Positions 18,845 to 23,474 of a stretch of 25,644 nt of DNA are shown piece by piece. The notes under the pieces are model-generated. The model worked only from the letters and a program-made list of their open reading frames with translations. It made no database searches and was not told where the DNA came from. Position 1 is the first letter of the stretch; every line of letters begins with the position of its first letter. The position numbers and the translations under genes were made by a program. Source of the DNA: a virus; IMG/VR virus record IMGVR_UViG_3300042390_000392, positions 1 to 25,644 of that record, one strand, 5' to 3'.

Positions 18845-19045
18845 ATGGCAGAAAAATCAATACGAATCCCAAAAGAAATTAAACAAGCACTTCGCAAGTT
18901 AGTAAAGGCAAAATTAACTAAAACCGCAACTGCTGAATACTTAGGTGTGCATCGTTTGACATTAAGCAATTTGTTAGAGCGTGAAACGTGCGACCCAAAG
19001 ACATTAACTGATGTAAATAAGAAATTAGCGGAGTGGAATAGCTAA
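18845..19045 (+). CDS. Small helix-turn-helix regulator, 66 aa
   Basis: 66 residues: a basic N-terminal part (MAEKSIRIPKEIKQALRKLV), then a helix-turn-helix (TKTATAEYLGVHRLTLSNLLERETCDPKTL) of the type in small phage regulators: LTK-TATAEYLGVHRLTLSNL. Likely a DNA-binding repressor or activator of early genes. I chose ATG 18845 because the promoter box ends 4 nt before it; the upstream ATG at 18806 would add 13 residues (MFAYTKVYTYFCG) and overlaps the -33 box. The TAA stop is part of the TAAC that opens element A1. Confidence 0.7.
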   Translation: MAEKSIRIPKEIKQALRKLVKAKLTKTATAEYLGVHRLTLSNLLERETCDPKTLTDVNKKLAEWNS

Positions 19046-19157
19046 CGTATGGGTATTGGCGAAGTTGCCGAACCGAAAGTTAAATTGAAAAACAAATGTT
19101 GAAATTATGGACGAAAGTTTAATTGAAAAACAGAACGGCAATTTTGCCAATACCTTG
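19043..19157 (+). repeat. Element A1, attC-like hairpin left of the methyltransferase module
   Basis: Starts with TAAC (19043-19046), where TAA is the stop of the HTH gene; then 5 nt; left arm GGTATTGGCGAAGTTGCCG (19052-19070); about 65 nt; right arm (19136-19154) that is its reverse complement except for two G-T positions; then TT and G of GTTAGGT. Loop holds a 21-bp direct repeat (19074-19094, 19112-19132; one mismatch). Shared layout with A2 at 22707. Confidence 0.6.
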
Positions 19158-19823
19158 TTAGGTGCAGTGCCTTCTGCGGTGTATAATGAGGATTGTGTAG
19201 AGGGTTTAAAACGCTTTGAGGATAATCACTTTGACCTTGCCATTGTTGACCCGCCTTATGGCTTAAATATTTCGGCTTTATCAAATTATGGTGAAAGTGG
19301 TGGAACTGATAAGCGATGGAACACCAATAAGAAAGACTTTTATAAGCCGAAAGAATGGGATAAAAACATTCCTACTGCTGAATACTTTGAGCAATTAAAA
19401 AGAGTATCTAAAAATCAAATTGTGTGGGGCTGGAATTACTATGTTAGTTACTTTAATGATTGCCCTTCTTACATAGTTTGGAACAAAGAAGCAAGTGGTA
19501 ATTATTCAGATTGTGAAATGGCTTGGTGTAGCATTAAAGGAACTAACAAGATATTCAAATGGCTGTGGAACGGATTTAGAAAGCAACAACCCGAAGAAAG
19601 AATACACCCTACTCAAAAACCTGTTGCCTTATACGATTGGATTTTAGAGCAATTTGGAAGCGATGCAAATTTGATTTTAGATACACACGTTGGAAGTGGA
19701 AGCAGTAGGATTGCTTGTAATAAGGCGGGTAAACAATTTGTCGGATTTGAAATAGATAAAGATTATTATGAAGCACAAGAAAAGCGTTTTAAAGATTTTG
19801 TCAGCCAACTCCGAATGTTTTAG
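19107..19823 (+). CDS. DNA methyltransferase (N6-adenine type, motif order IV before I)
   Basis: 238 residues. DPPYG at 48-52 (catalytic motif IV), IHPTQKP from 167, and DTHVGSGSS from 192 (AdoMet-binding motif I) followed by GFEID. Motif IV before I is the beta-type order of adenine or cytosine-N4 methyltransferases; DPPY favours N6-adenine. Methylation would protect phage DNA from restriction or affect regulation; no cognate restriction enzyme is present, so it is solitary. The first codons (from ATG 19107) lie inside element A1; GTG at 19167 or 19179 could be the real start if the gene belongs to the module that begins at 19157. The frame ends 10 bp before the module's right boundary repeat. 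Confidence 0.85.
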   Translation: MDESLIEKQNGNFANTLLGAVPSAVYNEDCVEGLKRFEDNHFDLAIVDPPYGLNISALSNYGESGGTDKRWNTNKKDFYKPKEWDKNIPTAEYFEQLKRVSKNQIVWGWNYYVSYFNDCPSYIVWNKEASGNYSDCEMAWCSIKGTNKIFKWLWNGFRKQQPEERIHPTQKPVALYDWILEQFGSDANLILDTHVGSGSSRIACNKAGKQFVGFEIDKDYYEAQEKRFKDFVSQLRMF

Positions 19824-19908
19824 GGTGTCCGCTGGCATTGCACCTAACTACTCGCTAGAACCAACTAATACTTATAATCAATTGATATTCAAATGATTAC
19901 AATACGAG
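19157..19908 (+). mobile_element. Putative integron-cassette-like module 1 (methyltransferase cargo)
   Basis: Begins GTTAGGTGCAGTGCC (19157-19171) and its 3' side begins GGCATTGCACCTAAC (19834-19848), reverse complements with one mismatch, followed by the 64-nt element B1. GTTAGGT and ACCTAAC fit the integron core consensus GTTRRRY / RYYYAAC. Cargo is one methyltransferase. No integrase in the window. The reading as a captured gene cassette is an inference from layout. Confidence 0.45.
19834..19908 (+). repeat. Element B1 with boundary repeat, attC-like
   Basis: GGCATTGCACCTAAC (19834-19848) then the 64-nt element TAAC...CAATACGAG (19845-19908). The element is 45/64 identical, without gaps, to B2 (23411-23474), including TAACTA-TCGCT at the left, a central TTGA-nnn-TCAA hairpin and CAATACGAG at the right. 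The gene at 19893 starts inside it. Confidence 0.6.
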
Positions 19909-20063
19909 TTAAAAATAAAGAATATGAATTTAAGAAGCCTTATTACTTGATGCAGAAAGATGAATTTAAGTTAATTAAAGCGGTGGTAAAAGGTTCAATT
20001 TTAGTGTGGAATATCGAAGGCAAACAAATTACTTATAATCAAATAAAAAAAACTTTAAAATAA
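19893..20063 (+). CDS. Small basic protein, 56 aa
   Basis: 56 residues (MITIRVKNKEYEFKKPYYLM...), beta then helical, lysine-rich. The first five codons lie within element B1. An ATG-start frame of this length with coherent composition is probably real. No family recognised; the start could differ if B1 is an insertion. Confidence 0.5.
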   Translation: MITIRVKNKEYEFKKPYYLMQKDEFKLIKAVVKGSILVWNIEGKQITYNQIKKTLK

Positions 20064-20088
20064 ATTAGTTTATATCAAAAAGTGTTTA

Positions 20089-20096
20089 TACATTTG
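20089..20096 (+). promoter_or_regulatory. -7 box for gene at 20121
   Basis: TACATTTG, with TTAG 20 nt upstream instead of TTTG, 24 nt before the ATG. It probably drives the recombination operon that starts at 20121. Confidence 0.45.
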
Positions 20097-20120
20097 CTTA
20101 AACAATAAAAACAAATAACA

Positions 20121-20396
20121 ATGAACAAAGAACAATTTATCAAACTATCGGTATTCCTAAACGAGAATGAATACACGAACGCAATATCATGGGAATTGCT
20201 GTTTTACTTCGCATCATGTAGCCGAATGAGTAACATGGATGAACACATCGACAAGCATAGATTTGAAACCTTTTGCGACTTCGCATTTGACGAGGCTAGT
20301 ATTGAGCATCATACTATGGTATTCGACAAAGTATTCTTAGACAAGGAATTGGATAGCGAAGAAGAACAATGTTTATTTGCGCATTTGGATAAGTAA
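20121..20396 (+). CDS. Small acidic protein, 91 aa
   Basis: 91 residues, acidic and mainly helical (NEYTNAISWELLFYFAS..., ending DSEEEQCLFAHLDK). First gene after the promoter at 20089 and before the recombination genes. No family recognised. Confidence 0.55.
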   Translation: MNKEQFIKLSVFLNENEYTNAISWELLFYFASCSRMSNMDEHIDKHRFETFCDFAFDEASIEHHTMVFDKVFLDKELDSEEEQCLFAHLDK

Positions 20397-20465
20397 AAAA
20401 GTGAGTGGGTGGCGAAATACTCGATAATAAACGCCAAACTTTTTAAACTTAAACTAAAAAATAAC

Positions 20466-21107
20466 ATGAGCAAAGAACTAGTAAAAATTGAAGCCAAAGA
20501 ATTATCATTAGTACAAGATAATTCGCTAAATGCTAACCAACTAGCATTATTAATGAAACGCACACCTGATAAGTTTGTTAGAACTAGACCTGCCAAAGGC
20601 GGTGGCGCTTGGACTTATGTAAGCGGTGGTTATATCCGCAAAGTATTAAATCTTATGTTTGGTTGGGACTGGGATTTTGAAGTATTGAGTGAATCAGTAC
20701 AAGCAAATCAAGTAATTGTAAAAGGTAAATTAACTTGTCGTGTTAATGGTCGTGCTATTGTTAAGACGCAATTTGGATGCAAAGAAATCATGTATAAACG
20801 TGGCACACAAGACCCATTGAACTTAGGTAATGACTACAAGGCTGCTGCTACCGATGCACTAAAGAAATGCGCTGCCGATATTGGAATTGCTAGCGATATT
20901 TATGGCAAAGATGAATTTAGAGAAATATCGGTTAATACTGAATCAGCCGAAGAAACCCACAACACCAAAGAGAAAGAAAGAGTTACAAAGCATATACTAC
21001 AATGCAAAACCGAAGATGAACTATTACAAGTTTATGATTTGGTAGGTAAATATAATCTAATAACTATTTATGAATCAAAAAAAGAATTAATCAATGCAAA
21101 CAAATAA
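20466..21107 (+). CDS. Rad52-like single-strand annealing protein
   Basis: 213 residues from ATG 20466, the start with a coherent N-terminus (MSKELVKIEAKELS); the GTG at 20409 would add 19 poorly conserved-looking residues. The core (LLMKRTPDKFVRTRPAKGGG, GYIRKVLNLMFGWDW, DYKAAATDALKKCAADIG, YGKDEF) fits the Rad52/Sak-like single-strand annealing family: basic groove residues and the A-x-x-DALKKCA helix. It anneals complementary strands in phage recombination. It overlaps the exonuclease gene by 14 bp, the classic annealase-exonuclease pairing. Confidence 0.7.
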   Translation: MSKELVKIEAKELSLVQDNSLNANQLALLMKRTPDKFVRTRPAKGGGAWTYVSGGYIRKVLNLMFGWDWDFEVLSESVQANQVIVKGKLTCRVNGRAIVKTQFGCKEIMYKRGTQDPLNLGNDYKAAATDALKKCAADIGIASDIYGKDEFREISVNTESAEETHNTKEKERVTKHILQCKTEDELLQVYDLVGKYNLITIYESKKELINANK

Positions 21108-21792
21108 TATTTTATTTAGATCATCATCAGTAGGTGCGCTATTAACAGAACCTAAAAGCAAATCAGACAAAGAGGCTGGGAAGTTATCCGACACAGCGAA
21201 AACTTTAATAGAAGATTTATGGTTATATAATACGTATGGGTTTCGTGAATCTATCAAAAATGACTACATGGATAAAGGTGTGGAAATGGAGCAAGAGTCA
21301 ATGCAATTAGCTCAAGACGTTTTAGGCGGTGCTTTTAGAAGTCGTTATAACAAACAACTAAGCAACGATTACATAAGTGGTTGTCCTGACATTGTTTTAA
21401 CCGATTGTGTTGAGGATATAAAGACTTCATGGAACTTAAAAACATACTTCAATGCCGAACCAACTACGATGTACAAGGTGCAAGCGCAATGTTATATGTG
21501 GCTTACAGGGGTGCATAGTTATCGTTTAATCTATGCCTTAGTGCCTACACCTCAAGACATCATATCAAGCCAAATGCAGAAGCTATCTTATGCTTATGGT
21601 GGAAACTACGATAATCTTGACTACATTGCCGAGTGTCAACAGATACAACGCAACAACGACTTGATTAATGAAATACCGAAATCGGATAGAATAAAGGTGT
21701 TTGAATATACGTTCGATGAAACGTTAGTTGAATCGCTAAAGGTTAAAATAGAGAAGGCTAGAAATTATTATAACACATTAAAATTGAAATAA
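21094..21792 (+). CDS. YqaJ/lambda-exonuclease-like nuclease
   Basis: 232 residues. PD-(D/E)xK nuclease signature: GCPDIV (D99), then EDIK (E107/D108 and K110), and YKVQAQCYMWL as the family's Q-x-Q-x-Y helix motif. This 5' exonuclease makes 3' single strands for the annealing protein encoded just upstream. Overlap of 14 bp with that gene suggests coupled expression. Nuclease class is clear; exact family not proven. Confidence 0.75.
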   Translation: MQTNNILFRSSSVGALLTEPKSKSDKEAGKLSDTAKTLIEDLWLYNTYGFRESIKNDYMDKGVEMEQESMQLAQDVLGGAFRSRYNKQLSNDYISGCPDIVLTDCVEDIKTSWNLKTYFNAEPTTMYKVQAQCYMWLTGVHSYRLIYALVPTPQDIISSQMQKLSYAYGGNYDNLDYIAECQQIQRNNDLINEIPKSDRIKVFEYTFDETLVESLKVKIEKARNYYNTLKLK

Positions 21793-21992
21793 TGATACCC
21801 AAAAAAATAATCAGCATAATCAATAGTTGCAATATGCATCAACAATTAGACACGTGTATCAAGTGGATAGATTACATTTATCCATTTGACGAGCAACGCA
21901 AAAAAGCCTACAAACTAATCAAAAAACGCAAAGCACAAATTGAAATATGTGGCGCAAAGGTTGAATTAATTAATAAAACACAGATAGCATGA
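21792..21992 (+). CDS. Small basic protein, 66 aa
   Basis: 66 residues (MIPKKIISIINSCNMHQQLD, then KKAYKLIKKRKAQIEICGAK), basic, helical. Starts on the last base of the exonuclease stop and overlaps the next gene by 4 bp, so it belongs to the recombination operon. No family recognised. Confidence 0.5.
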   Translation: MIPKKIISIINSCNMHQQLDTCIKWIDYIYPFDEQRKKAYKLIKKRKAQIEICGAKVELINKTQIA

Positions 21993-22294
21993 TAGACCTA
22001 GAACTAGAACTCGAAGCACTCGACACACATAGAAAGTTTAATGGTTGCTTAACAACGCACGAAATAGCTGATAAAGTAGGCATTAAGTATTGGGAGATGG
22101 TAGGCATACTTAGACGAAATAAAGTACACCCTATCAAGGTTGTGCCAATATCGTATAAATACACTCAACAATATTTGAGAAAGTTAAAAGAACTTTACTT
22201 TACTTTAAAAGCTAGACTTGACGATTATGAATTACTCCAAAATATGCGACAAGAAATAAAATATTTAGAAACTTTAAAATTACAACGAAAATGA
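21989..22294 (+). CDS. Small HTH-like protein, 101 aa
   Basis: 101 residues. A helix-turn-helix-like stretch near residues 20-45 (LTTHEIADKVGIKYWEMVGIL) then basic helical repeats (YLRKLKELYFTLKARLDDYE). May bind DNA. Overlaps both neighbours by 4 bp. Family not named. Confidence 0.5.
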   Translation: MIDLELELEALDTHRKFNGCLTTHEIADKVGIKYWEMVGILRRNKVHPIKVVPISYKYTQQYLRKLKELYFTLKARLDDYELLQNMRQEIKYLETLKLQRK

Positions 22295-22536
22295 ACTACT
22301 CCGATTACATAAAACTAGGGTTTAAACGGCACGACACGGATGATGCTGTTGAATTTAACCAAACTGGTTATGGCGGCTTTTACCTATCATTTGACCTTAA
22401 TTCTAAGGCTAGTATCCAAGTATGCTATGGCGAACTAGATAAGCCTAAATTATACGTTAAAAAGCGCAAAGAAGACAGCTATTACATCACCCAATTAACC
22501 GATGAGCAATTAATTAATTTAACTAAAATAAAATAA
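22291..22536 (+). CDS. Small protein, 81 aa, unknown
   Basis: 81 residues: YSDYIKLGFKRHDTDDAVEF, FNQTGYGGFYLSFDLNSKAS, then KLYVKKRKEDSYYITQLTDE. Mixed alpha/beta, reading as an early phage protein. Overlaps the preceding gene by 4 bp. No family recognised. Confidence 0.5.
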   Translation: MNYSDYIKLGFKRHDTDDAVEFNQTGYGGFYLSFDLNSKASIQVCYGELDKPKLYVKKRKEDSYYITQLTDEQLINLTKIK

Positions 22537-22538
22537 AC

Positions 22539-22709
22539 ATGAACCACGAACAATTAACCCAACGCATCGCAGACGCACAAGACTACCAACAACTCTTAGA
22601 CATATCACACTATGTCGAACGAGAATATCAAGGCGACAAGACCGAGTTACGAAAGTTGATAGACGCAAAGTTTAAAAGGGATTTGGATGATTATCCGTTG
22701 GGCAAATAA
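22539..22709 (+). CDS. Small acidic protein, 56 aa, ends in element A2
   Basis: 56 residues (MNHEQLTQRIADAQDYQQLL..., ending DDYPLGK), helical and charged. The TAA stop at 22707-22709 is the first three bases of the TAAC that opens element A2, just as the HTH stop opens A1. No family recognised. Confidence 0.5.
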   Translation: MNHEQLTQRIADAQDYQQLLDISHYVEREYQGDKTELRKLIDAKFKRDLDDYPLGK

Positions 22710-22828
22710 CGGTCGAGTATTGGCGAAGAAGCGGACTTTTACCACTAAAGTTGATACGAATAACCAATGATCAACCTACTACAAATGTTCATACGAAGCA
22801 CTGAAACCGCTTTTTTGCCAATACTTTG
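22707..22828 (+). repeat. Element A2, attC-like hairpin left of module 2
   Basis: TAAC (22707-22710), 5 nt, left arm AGTATTGGCGAAGAAGCGG (22716-22734), 72 nt, right arm (22807-22825) its reverse complement except for two G-T positions at the same offsets as in A1, then TT and G of GTTATGC. The last six arm bases differ from A1 (AAGCGG against TTGCCG) but still pair with their partner, so the fold is conserved while sequence is not. Confidence 0.6.
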
Positions 22829-22895
22829 TTATGCATTCGCCTTATTTTTTCGTGTTGATTATGAGCAAGTTATAAAGTATTTTAAAAATAAATGA
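22767..22895 (+). CDS. Possible 42-aa single-pass membrane ORF
   Basis: A 42-codon frame (MINLLQMFIRSTETAFLPIL..., ending YFKNK) with one hydrophobic stretch. It crosses the right arm of A2 and the module boundary, so it may be chance or a product of the fused boundary. No family recognised; low confidence. Confidence 0.25.
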   Translation: MINLLQMFIRSTETAFLPILCYAFALFFRVDYEQVIKYFKNK

Positions 22896-22913
22896 AAAAT
22901 ACTTTGAAAAAAG

Positions 22914-22944
22914 TTTGCAGTTATCAAAATAGGTTGTATATTTG
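22914..22944 (+). promoter_or_regulatory. Promoter of module 2 genes
   Basis: TTTG (22914-22917), 19 nt, TATATTTG (22937-22944): full consensus. The leader is about 40 nt to the ATG at 22986. Confidence 0.75.
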
Positions 22945-22985
22945 TACCAGATAAGCAATTAAGCATATCAGTAAAAAATAAAAAA

Positions 22986-23246
22986 ATGGAAGCGATAATT
23001 TCAAAAAGAGGCGAAAACAACAAAGTAATAGGTCAATTTTTTGTAACCTATAAGGCACAAAGAGTTTGGGGTGGTGTTCCACAAAAACCATATATAACTA
23101 CTCACCTTATTCCAAGTGAAACTAAAGTAGCATTGACTTGTGATGAATTGAATAGCAATTGGCAAGAAAGATATAATGGCAAATGCCCATTTAACGGAGA
23201 TATTAACTTTGAAGTTGTTAGAATACAACAAAGAACGCAATTTTAA
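22986..23246 (+). CDS. Module 2 cargo protein, 86 aa
   Basis: 86 residues, beta-rich (IGQFFVTYKAQRVWGGVPQKP, then THLIPSETKVALTCDELNSN), with two cysteines and a conserved-looking WGG. No family recognised. It has its own consensus promoter and overlaps the next gene by 1 bp (TAATG). It reads like a small phage or mobile-element cargo gene; function unknown. Confidence 0.55.
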   Translation: MEAIISKRGENNKVIGQFFVTYKAQRVWGGVPQKPYITTHLIPSETKVALTCDELNSNWQERYNGKCPFNGDINFEVVRIQQRTQF

Positions 23247-23413
23247 TGAAAAAGAAAAAAGAAACGAGAGGGGGGAAACGCCCCCTCTCTGGTCGCAAAA
23301 AAGCGGACTATGAAACTAAAACTATTGCCTTTCGTGTTCGTGTCGAGTTTGTTGAACCTATTAAAAAAATGGTAAAGGATTATGTTTCGGGTCGTCTGCA
23401 AGGTGACGCATAA
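23246..23413 (+). CDS. Small basic protein, 55 aa, possible DNA-binding
   Basis: 55 residues: a very basic start (MKKKKETRGGKRPLSGRKKA) and a compact second half (TKTIAFRVRVEFVEPIKKMV) with a strand-then-helix feel of a ribbon-helix-helix protein. Codons 7-15 contain a 9-bp G/C hairpin (23266-23289). The TAA stop is within GCATAAC, the opening of element B2. No family recognised. Confidence 0.5.
   Translation: MKKKKETRGGKRPLSGRKKADYETKTIAFRVRVEFVEPIKKMVKDYVSGRLQGDA
23266..23289 (+). promoter_or_regulatory. Strong GC hairpin inside the 23246 gene
   Basis: GAGAGGGGG (23266-23274), loop GAAACG, CCCCCTCTC (23281-23289): a perfect 9-bp stem in an AT-rich genome. No T run follows on either strand nearby, so it is not a simple terminator. 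It may slow translation or mark an RNA end. Confidence 0.5.
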
Positions 23414-23474
23414 CTAATCGCTTTGCGCAACTATGATGAATAAATAATTGAAAATCAATAGTTTGCAATACGAG
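23408..23474 (+). repeat. Element B2, attC-like, right end of module 2
   Basis: GCATAAC then 23411-23474, the second copy of the 64-nt element (45/64 identical to B1). An imperfect stem joins TTTGCGCAACTATGAT (23422-23437) to ATCAATAGTTTGCAA (23454-23468), with an inner ATTGA-AAA-TCAAT hairpin. After CGAG the flank is CACTAA, not GTT. Confidence 0.6.

Follow-up and report, generated by a model that had tools for sequence, protein, structure and literature searches.

Two modules of a Bacteroidota phage are very probably gene cassettes of an integron-type system also present in Bacteroidota

Two modules of a phage record (IMG/VR IMGVR_UViG_3300042390_000392; the window comprises 25,644 nucleotides) are very probably gene cassettes of an integron-type system that is common to Bacteroidota and their phages. 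The modules have the same anatomy and covarying ends, and whole units of this kind are present, absent or exchanged at TAAC sequences in related phages. Arrays in bacteria and other viruses adjoin a tyrosine recombinase and an attI-like site, with opposite gene polarity in the two groups. Inspection of the sequence found the features of the original prediction in place, including boundary sequences that are reverse complements within each module.

Cassette 1, all features of which lie on the plus strand, is inferred to span 802 bp (19046–19847) in the form C|G-hairpin-GTTAGGT...methyltransferase...ACCTAA|C, its ends having been placed from the sister phage L129 and from indels among Flavobacterium phages. 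The attC-like hairpin A1 (19043–19160; fold z -5.0; covariance model 97.8 bits) consists of TAAC, a 5-nt spacer, a 19-bp stem, a 65-nt loop, a 2-nt spacer and GTTA. The cargo is an N6/N4 DNA methyltransferase (19107–19823; Pfam PF01555, 4.8e-17; PHROG 67), whose ATG is inside the A1 loop and whose reading frame crosses the 3' arm of A1. The R'-like start GTTAGGTGCAGTGCC (19157–19171) and the R''-like end GGCATTGCACCTAAC (19834–19848) form the inverted repeat I16 over 15 bp with one mismatch, and the latter was also identified from end statistics. The cassette is followed by the attI-like terminal site B1 (19845–19908; AAC|TACTCGCTAGAACCAACT), which is shared with L129, there behind another cassette.

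Cassette 2, also on the plus strand, shows the same anatomy and is inferred to span 704 bp (22710–23413) in the form C|G-hairpin-GTTATGC...two small genes...GCATAA|C. Its hairpin, A2 (22707–22831; fold z -3.4; covariance model 107.2 bits), has a 19-bp stem and a 72-nt loop. A promoter-like site read from the sequence, TTTG-19 nt-TATATTTG (22914–22944), is a candidate that we take to match the Bacteroidota promoter consensus. The first gene (22986–23246, 86 aa) had no match in family searches (Pfam, PHROG); the second (23246–23413, 55 aa) stops at the TAA that opens the terminal TAAC, and a last gene resembling it lies 3' of A2-type hairpins in four other contigs (L030, L076, L094, L107). The end GCATAAC (23408–23414) is exactly complementary over 7 bp to GTTATGC at 22828–22834, and the attI-like terminal site B2 (23411–23474; AAC|TAATCGCTTTGCGCAACT) follows. 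As had been noted, the boxes GTTAGGT/ACCTAAC of cassette 1 strictly fit the integron consensus and GTTATGC departs from it. The remark that the phage has no integrase was also confirmed, as no recombinase was found in the 25.6-kb record, which is possibly a fragment.

Both hairpins have stems of 19–20 bp, with TAAC at the start and GTTA at the end, and when the plus strand was folded as single-stranded DNA none of 200 shuffles folded equally well. Particular hairpin patterns were found again in dozens of viral contigs. Compensatory changes at 15 of 17 stem pairs among 46 sequences, 45 of which have one particular G.T pair, indicate that the A-type hairpins are one family. A covariance model, built from elements that a pattern search and a stem scanner had first picked out, matched in 142 of 296 Bacteroidota genomes sampled from GTDB, often as chromosomal arrays; at most 11 candidates were scored in each genome, which caps the hairpin counts. 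The hairpin strand was the stabler strand in all cases (83/83 and 30/30), a result partly built into the scanner. The alignment contained no clear extrahelical bases typical of attC, their place being occupied by conserved wobbles and mismatches. An Rfam search gave no significant match, and a search of plasmids for the hairpin of L065 found none. A1 and A2 are attC-like sites of cassettes and sit on the 5' side of the cargo.

Comparison of near-identical Flavobacterium phages showed that they differ by exact hairpin-plus-cargo units at TAAC. Between mumin6-1 and mumin6-4 this difference is 506 bp; mumin and filifjonk differ by one and by three cassettes. The cleanest indel has about 7 bp in common at its ends. 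Because the unit that comes and goes between mumin6-1 and mumin6-4 is a hairpin with its downstream gene, the A hairpin travels with the gene downstream of it, and its assignment to the upstream gene (the canonical polarity) is ruled out in these phages. In L129, site 1 has flanks resembling those of the phage (97–99% identity upstream, about 90% downstream), and the same TAAC joins enclose two different methyltransferase cassettes. The empty-site check proposed with the original prediction was borne out in part, since cassette-presence variants exist among the sister phages and units are exchanged at the TAAC joins of site 1, but module 2 and B2 are missing together in L129. According to the joins in sister phages, the cassette ends are boxes of the GTTRRRY and RYYYAAC type with the crossover at G|TT = TAA|C, in keeping with the integron-cassette logic that had been proposed. 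The two ends of the same cassette matched at no fewer than 8 of 10 positions in 44 of 61 viral and 35 of 59 bacterial cassettes, against about 2% of shuffled ends; no end matched that of the previous cassette at 8/10 in viral or bacterial arrays.

The same elements occur, as anticipated, in integron-like arrays with a recombinase. Chromosomal arrays in Bacteroidota often carry a XerA/IntI-like tyrosine recombinase (PF00589) and an attI-like site at their 3' end. Of the 30 top-ranked recombinase loci, taken with flanks of 1.5 kb, 17 contained the hairpin; in 16 of these 17 it lies downstream of the recombinase on the opposite strand (side and strand taken from the tables), and a matching cassette end lies 69–126 bp past the recombinase stop at 15 of 16 chromosomal loci. 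Other viruses also encode array-type recombinases. Among 40 viral contigs encoding a relative of the array recombinase, two of which (L285 and L286) are probably near-copies, 21 had arrays upstream on the same strand, and most virus-encoded integrases, like 15 of the 16 chromosomal loci, have an attI-like site beside them. In one check of virus records, a single terminase family was matched in 4 of 16; some of the arrays counted as viral may therefore lie in bacterial DNA. Gene strand was opposite to that of the hairpin in 76 of 85 bacterial cassettes (attC 3' of the gene, the integron polarity); all 40 viral cassettes scored were inverted, with the attC-like hairpin 5' of the gene on the same strand.

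The array recombinases scored 192–212 bits against the IntI family TIGR02249 (cut-off 265) and lack the IntI-specific insertion, with positions 181–237 of the profile unmatched. The best family match was XerA (NCBIfam NF040815), five of six recombinases scoring 221–229 bits (cut-off 220), and the chromosomal enzymes have an additional N-terminal region of about 70 residues. IntI was rejected as the array enzyme, as nothing above the TIGR02249 cut-off was found in the eight genomes carrying a hairpin pattern.

The terminal sites differ in kind from the A elements. B1 and B2 are 70% identical over 64 nt, and their hairpins are weak or non-significant (z -2.8 and -0.3). The original prediction had taken them for the attC of the cassettes; this assignment was rejected because they fold poorly and no GTT-closed hairpins come after them, and the attC-like element is A. 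A terminal-site consensus from 27 phage cassettes reached 10.1 bits (control mean 1.65, control maximum 2.67). Scores of B1 and B2 against the attI of virus-encoded integrases were only within the top 4–6%, a B-specific pattern had no match in viral contigs, and a similarity search with B1 gave weak, scattered phage matches only. B1 and B2 are attI-like terminal sites and may function as attI.

Other explanations of the modules were weighed against the cassette reading. Phage mosaicism, in which homologous recombination acts between conserved hairpins and gene ends with no dedicated recombinase and the hairpins are passive spacers, agrees with the similar 3' ends of the methyltransferase genes in the phage and L129, with the common ends and diverged middles of A1-linked methyltransferases, and with a Rad52-like protein and an exonuclease encoded in the record. 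It is nevertheless unlikely, given that the cleanest indel has so little identity at its ends, that unlike hairpins substitute for each other at the same TAAC, and that arrays terminate at a recombinase with a conserved terminal site; such recombination may operate in addition to the cassette system. The form first proposed, with ordinary cassettes taken up by a canonical host IntI and B1 and B2 as attC, appears very improbable. GTTAGGT/ACCTAAC agree with the consensus, Polaribacter phage P12002L has similar hairpins 5' of methyltransferase genes, and a study of phage cassette clusters reports recombination of P12002L_attC2 with attI1 by IntI1 (PMC9892861). Against this stand the association of the hairpin with the downstream gene, the poor folding of B1 and B2, and the lack of an above-cut-off IntI in the eight genomes; the array recombinases are XerA/IntI-like and also encoded by viruses.

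Elements acting at the RNA level, as mRNA hairpins that expose or mask start codons with no tie to mobility, would account for the G.U pairs kept on the coding strand and for the start codon within the loop in 41 of 76 viral elements. This explanation has slightly less to recommend it still, as hairpin polarity is unchanged in the bacterial arrays, where most genes are on the other strand, and the covarying cassette ends are distant in the mRNA. Least probable is single-strand transposition of the IS200/IS605 type with the hairpin beside a TAAC target. Insertion beside a short fixed sequence with no duplication beyond TAAC, and a hairpin stabler on one strand, are features of that kind, but subterminal hairpins would be expected at both ends and only one end has a hairpin; the cassette ends covary, and the enzyme adjoining the arrays is a PF00589 tyrosine recombinase.

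The recombination mechanism of the cassette system, including its chemistry and single-stranded substrate, is proposed from homology and anatomy. Each module can be written TAA|C-hairpin-GTTAxyz-cargo-zyxTAA|C, its two inverted ends covarying. In an excised circle, zyxTAAC and GTTAxyz would prolong the hairpin, giving a single long site folded from the coding strand. A XerA/IntI-type tyrosine recombinase would cut this site at TAA|C, and the cut cassette would then be joined at the TAA|C of either a neighbouring cassette or an attI-like site (B1, B2). The recombinase acting on the phage cassettes is presumably supplied by the host or by a virus infecting the same cell. Genes of the inverted viral cassettes are read toward the attI end, fitting a one-way phage operon in which the integrase, where present, is the last gene. 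Much of the phage cargo examined, as here, includes a DNA methyltransferase, which plausibly serves evasion of host restriction.

A wider interpretation, which we favour by a small degree, is that a distinct XerA-like (non-IntI) class of integrons is widespread in Bacteroidota, with a phage-adapted branch in which the cassettes are inverted and the integrase is terminal; hosts would stock defence genes and phages methyltransferases, and orphan attI-like sites would let phages lacking an integrase share the pool. Integrons were reported to be nearly absent from Bacteroidetes, with one complete integron in Salinibacter ruber (PMC9024848), a picture that a parallel system with sites in roughly half the genomes sampled would revise. 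Such a system would also suggest how phages exchange their methyltransferase genes and hosts their defence genes. Those lytic Flavobacterium phages for which plating has been linked to methyltransferase presence (PMC7077304) open the system to laboratory testing.

Among known systems, integrons share the cassette arrays, the attC-like hairpins with R-type boxes, the G|TT (TAA|C) joins, and an attI-like site with a tyrosine recombinase at one end of the array. They differ in that the recombinase here is below the IntI cut-off without the IntI insertion, the spacers are 5 and 1–2 nt, G.T wobbles replace clear extrahelical bases, and the viral genes are inverted with the integrase downstream. The phage integrons and CALINs of Qi et al. 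2023 (PMC9892861), including P12002L with its methyltransferase genes, likewise involve a virulent phage, a Bacteroidota host and attC-like sites beside methyltransferase genes. Some of the published sites are of divergent direction; systematic inversion, attI-like terminal sites, a chromosomal counterpart and the array recombinase found here do not figure in the available part of that description. Reverse integrons (Treponema denticola and others; PMC6557892) resemble most of the chromosomal arrays found here in that the integrase is transcribed in the direction of the cassette genes, but their integrase is termed IntI, and the viral form here also inverts the gene relative to attC. XerA-type tyrosine recombinases (NF040815; PDB 4a8e, 5hxy) are the family that the array recombinase matches best; the chromosomal array enzymes are set apart from them by their N-terminal extra region and their tie to cassette arrays.

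The cassette as a mobile unit is directly visible in isolated Flavobacterium phages. The mumin6-4 sequence at the site reads AGCGGTTAACG|TTATCAGG, and mumin6-1 carries 506 bp extra at the same TAAC; filifjonk has a single cassette at one TAAC, and a tandem run of three at a second, that mumin lacks. Read on the gene strand the cassettes join at TAA|C, which on the opposite strand is G|TT, the integron crossover, and this join was also found at site 1 of L129, a sister phage contig. L129 matches the window at 97–99% as far as position 19048; the match resumes with the TAAC at 19845, and between these shared flanks L129 holds two different methyltransferase cassettes. Site 2 is different in that L129 lacks both module 2 and B2, so that B2 was part of the gain or loss there.

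Among relatives from viral contigs gathered with specific hairpin patterns, the hairpin keeps its downstream gene, while the upstream sequence varies. In A2-type cassettes (L030, L076, L094 and L107) the hairpin is retained and the small last gene, which could be a regulator, is similar, with differing genes between the two. The A1-linked methyltransferase genes of contigs L012 and L037 share their beginnings with the window gene at 19107–19823 and differ in their middles; that of L012 also shares its end. These genes look as if recombined internally.

In the window, A1 (19043–19160) and A2 (22707–22831) are strong hairpins that open at the TAA stop of the preceding gene and close at GTTA. At the cargo end of both modules the boundary that follows the hairpin recurs in reverse complement (TAAC); next comes B1 (19845–19908) or B2 (23411–23474), which are 70% similar. 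Cargo 1 (19107–19823) encodes an N6/N4 DNA methyltransferase, whose ATG sits inside the A1 loop. Cargo 2 consists of two small genes belonging to no known family, preceded by a promoter-like site (TTTG-19 nt-TATATTTG, 22914–22944) resembling the Bacteroidota promoter consensus. A Rad52-like protein and an exonuclease are encoded between the cassettes (20409–21789); this region may also be shuffled through homologous recombination.

B1 and B2 were originally predicted to be the attC sites of these cassettes. In phage arrays a common motif near ACGCAA stands in the sequences after the last TAAC. The information content of 27 such terminal sites, B1 and B2 included, is 10.1 bits; in 500 resamples of TAAC-following sequence it averages 1.65 and peaks at 2.67. 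B1 and B2 fit this motif in part, and the best reading is that they are orphan attI-like sites instead.

Compensatory changes were detected in 15 of 17 stem pairs of the hairpin family (46 aligned elements), and one stem position is G.T in 45 of the 46. Covariance model scores were 97.8 bits for A1 and 107.2 bits for A2. A cassette's own ends match at 8/10 positions or more in 44/61 viral and 35/59 bacterial pairs, compared with about 2% of shuffled ends and none of the previous-cassette ends in these pairs; position 7 of this pairing is again mostly G.T. In every modelled circle the fold of the hairpin strand is better than that of its complement, a figure biased by the stem scanner, which chooses the strand partly by stability. 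Independent support for the strand is its link to the gene strand and the attI side.

The model matched in 142 of 296 Bacteroidota genomes, including chromosomal arrays such as that of G065 (some twenty elements in 37 kb). In G065, G067, G281 and G297 an array is closely followed, at its 3' end, by a tyrosine recombinase; G067 also has a decayed one with two in-frame stops near an array 3' end (C1 820830–821141). The array recombinases best match NF040815 (XerA/integron integrase), score below the IntI cut-off and have no IntI insertion. Within 1.5-kb flanks, 17 of the 30 top recombinase loci contained a hairpin; in 16 of the 17 it lies downstream of the recombinase and on the other strand. 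In 15 of 16 loci, a complementary cassette end lies 69–126 bp past the recombinase stop, preceded by a core resembling TATAAACAA|GTT.

Among 40 searched viral contigs encoding a recombinase relative, arrays lie upstream of it on the same strand in 21, the viral nature of some contigs resting on IMG/VR since a search for one terminase family gave a match in no more than 4 of 16 of the virus records. An AAC|TATTATATATA-like site precedes the recombinase gene in about half of the viral array loci examined. One 170-kb record classed as virus (G319, behind L107) has 36 hairpin matches at about 77–115 kb.

Cargo was sampled in small numbers, as ten bacterial and ten viral proteins chosen by length. 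For several bacterial ones the match is to defence-related families (Shedu, GmrSD, MutH, AIPR, Schlafen/AlbA, a reverse transcriptase), for one to nucleotidyltransferases, a group including resistance enzymes; six viral ones match methyltransferase families. The chromosomal cassette gene at L219 11855–12634 matches nucleotidyltransferases (LinB-like, streptomycin adenylyltransferase) and is a candidate resistance gene. The paper on the Flavobacterium phages, which leaves integrons unmentioned, ties reduced plating to the lack of a methyltransferase (PMC7077304).

IntegronFinder 2.0 reported one complete integron in Bacteroidetes (PMC9024848), and another paper gives integrons a varying prevalence across phyla, Bacteroidota among them (PMC9668308). 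PMC9892861 reports phage attC sites, including those of Polaribacter phage P12002L, partly tested with IntI1. Reverse integrons are already known (PMC6557892); no account of the inverted viral form turned up in the literature searched, which excluded preprints and most subscription papers.

The loop holds a start codon, open through the 3' arm, in 41/76 viral elements (1/76 in the reverse-strand control) and in 12/73 bacterial ones (control 2/73). With the longest ORF taken to represent each cassette, the gene is opposite to the hairpin strand in 76/85 bacterial cassettes and on it in 40/40 viral ones. Phage cassettes join at the G|TT crossover of integrons, TAA|C on the gene strand. In integrons the gene is opposite to the attC hairpin strand; most of the bacterial cassettes scored are alike in this, and the viral ones scored are reversed.
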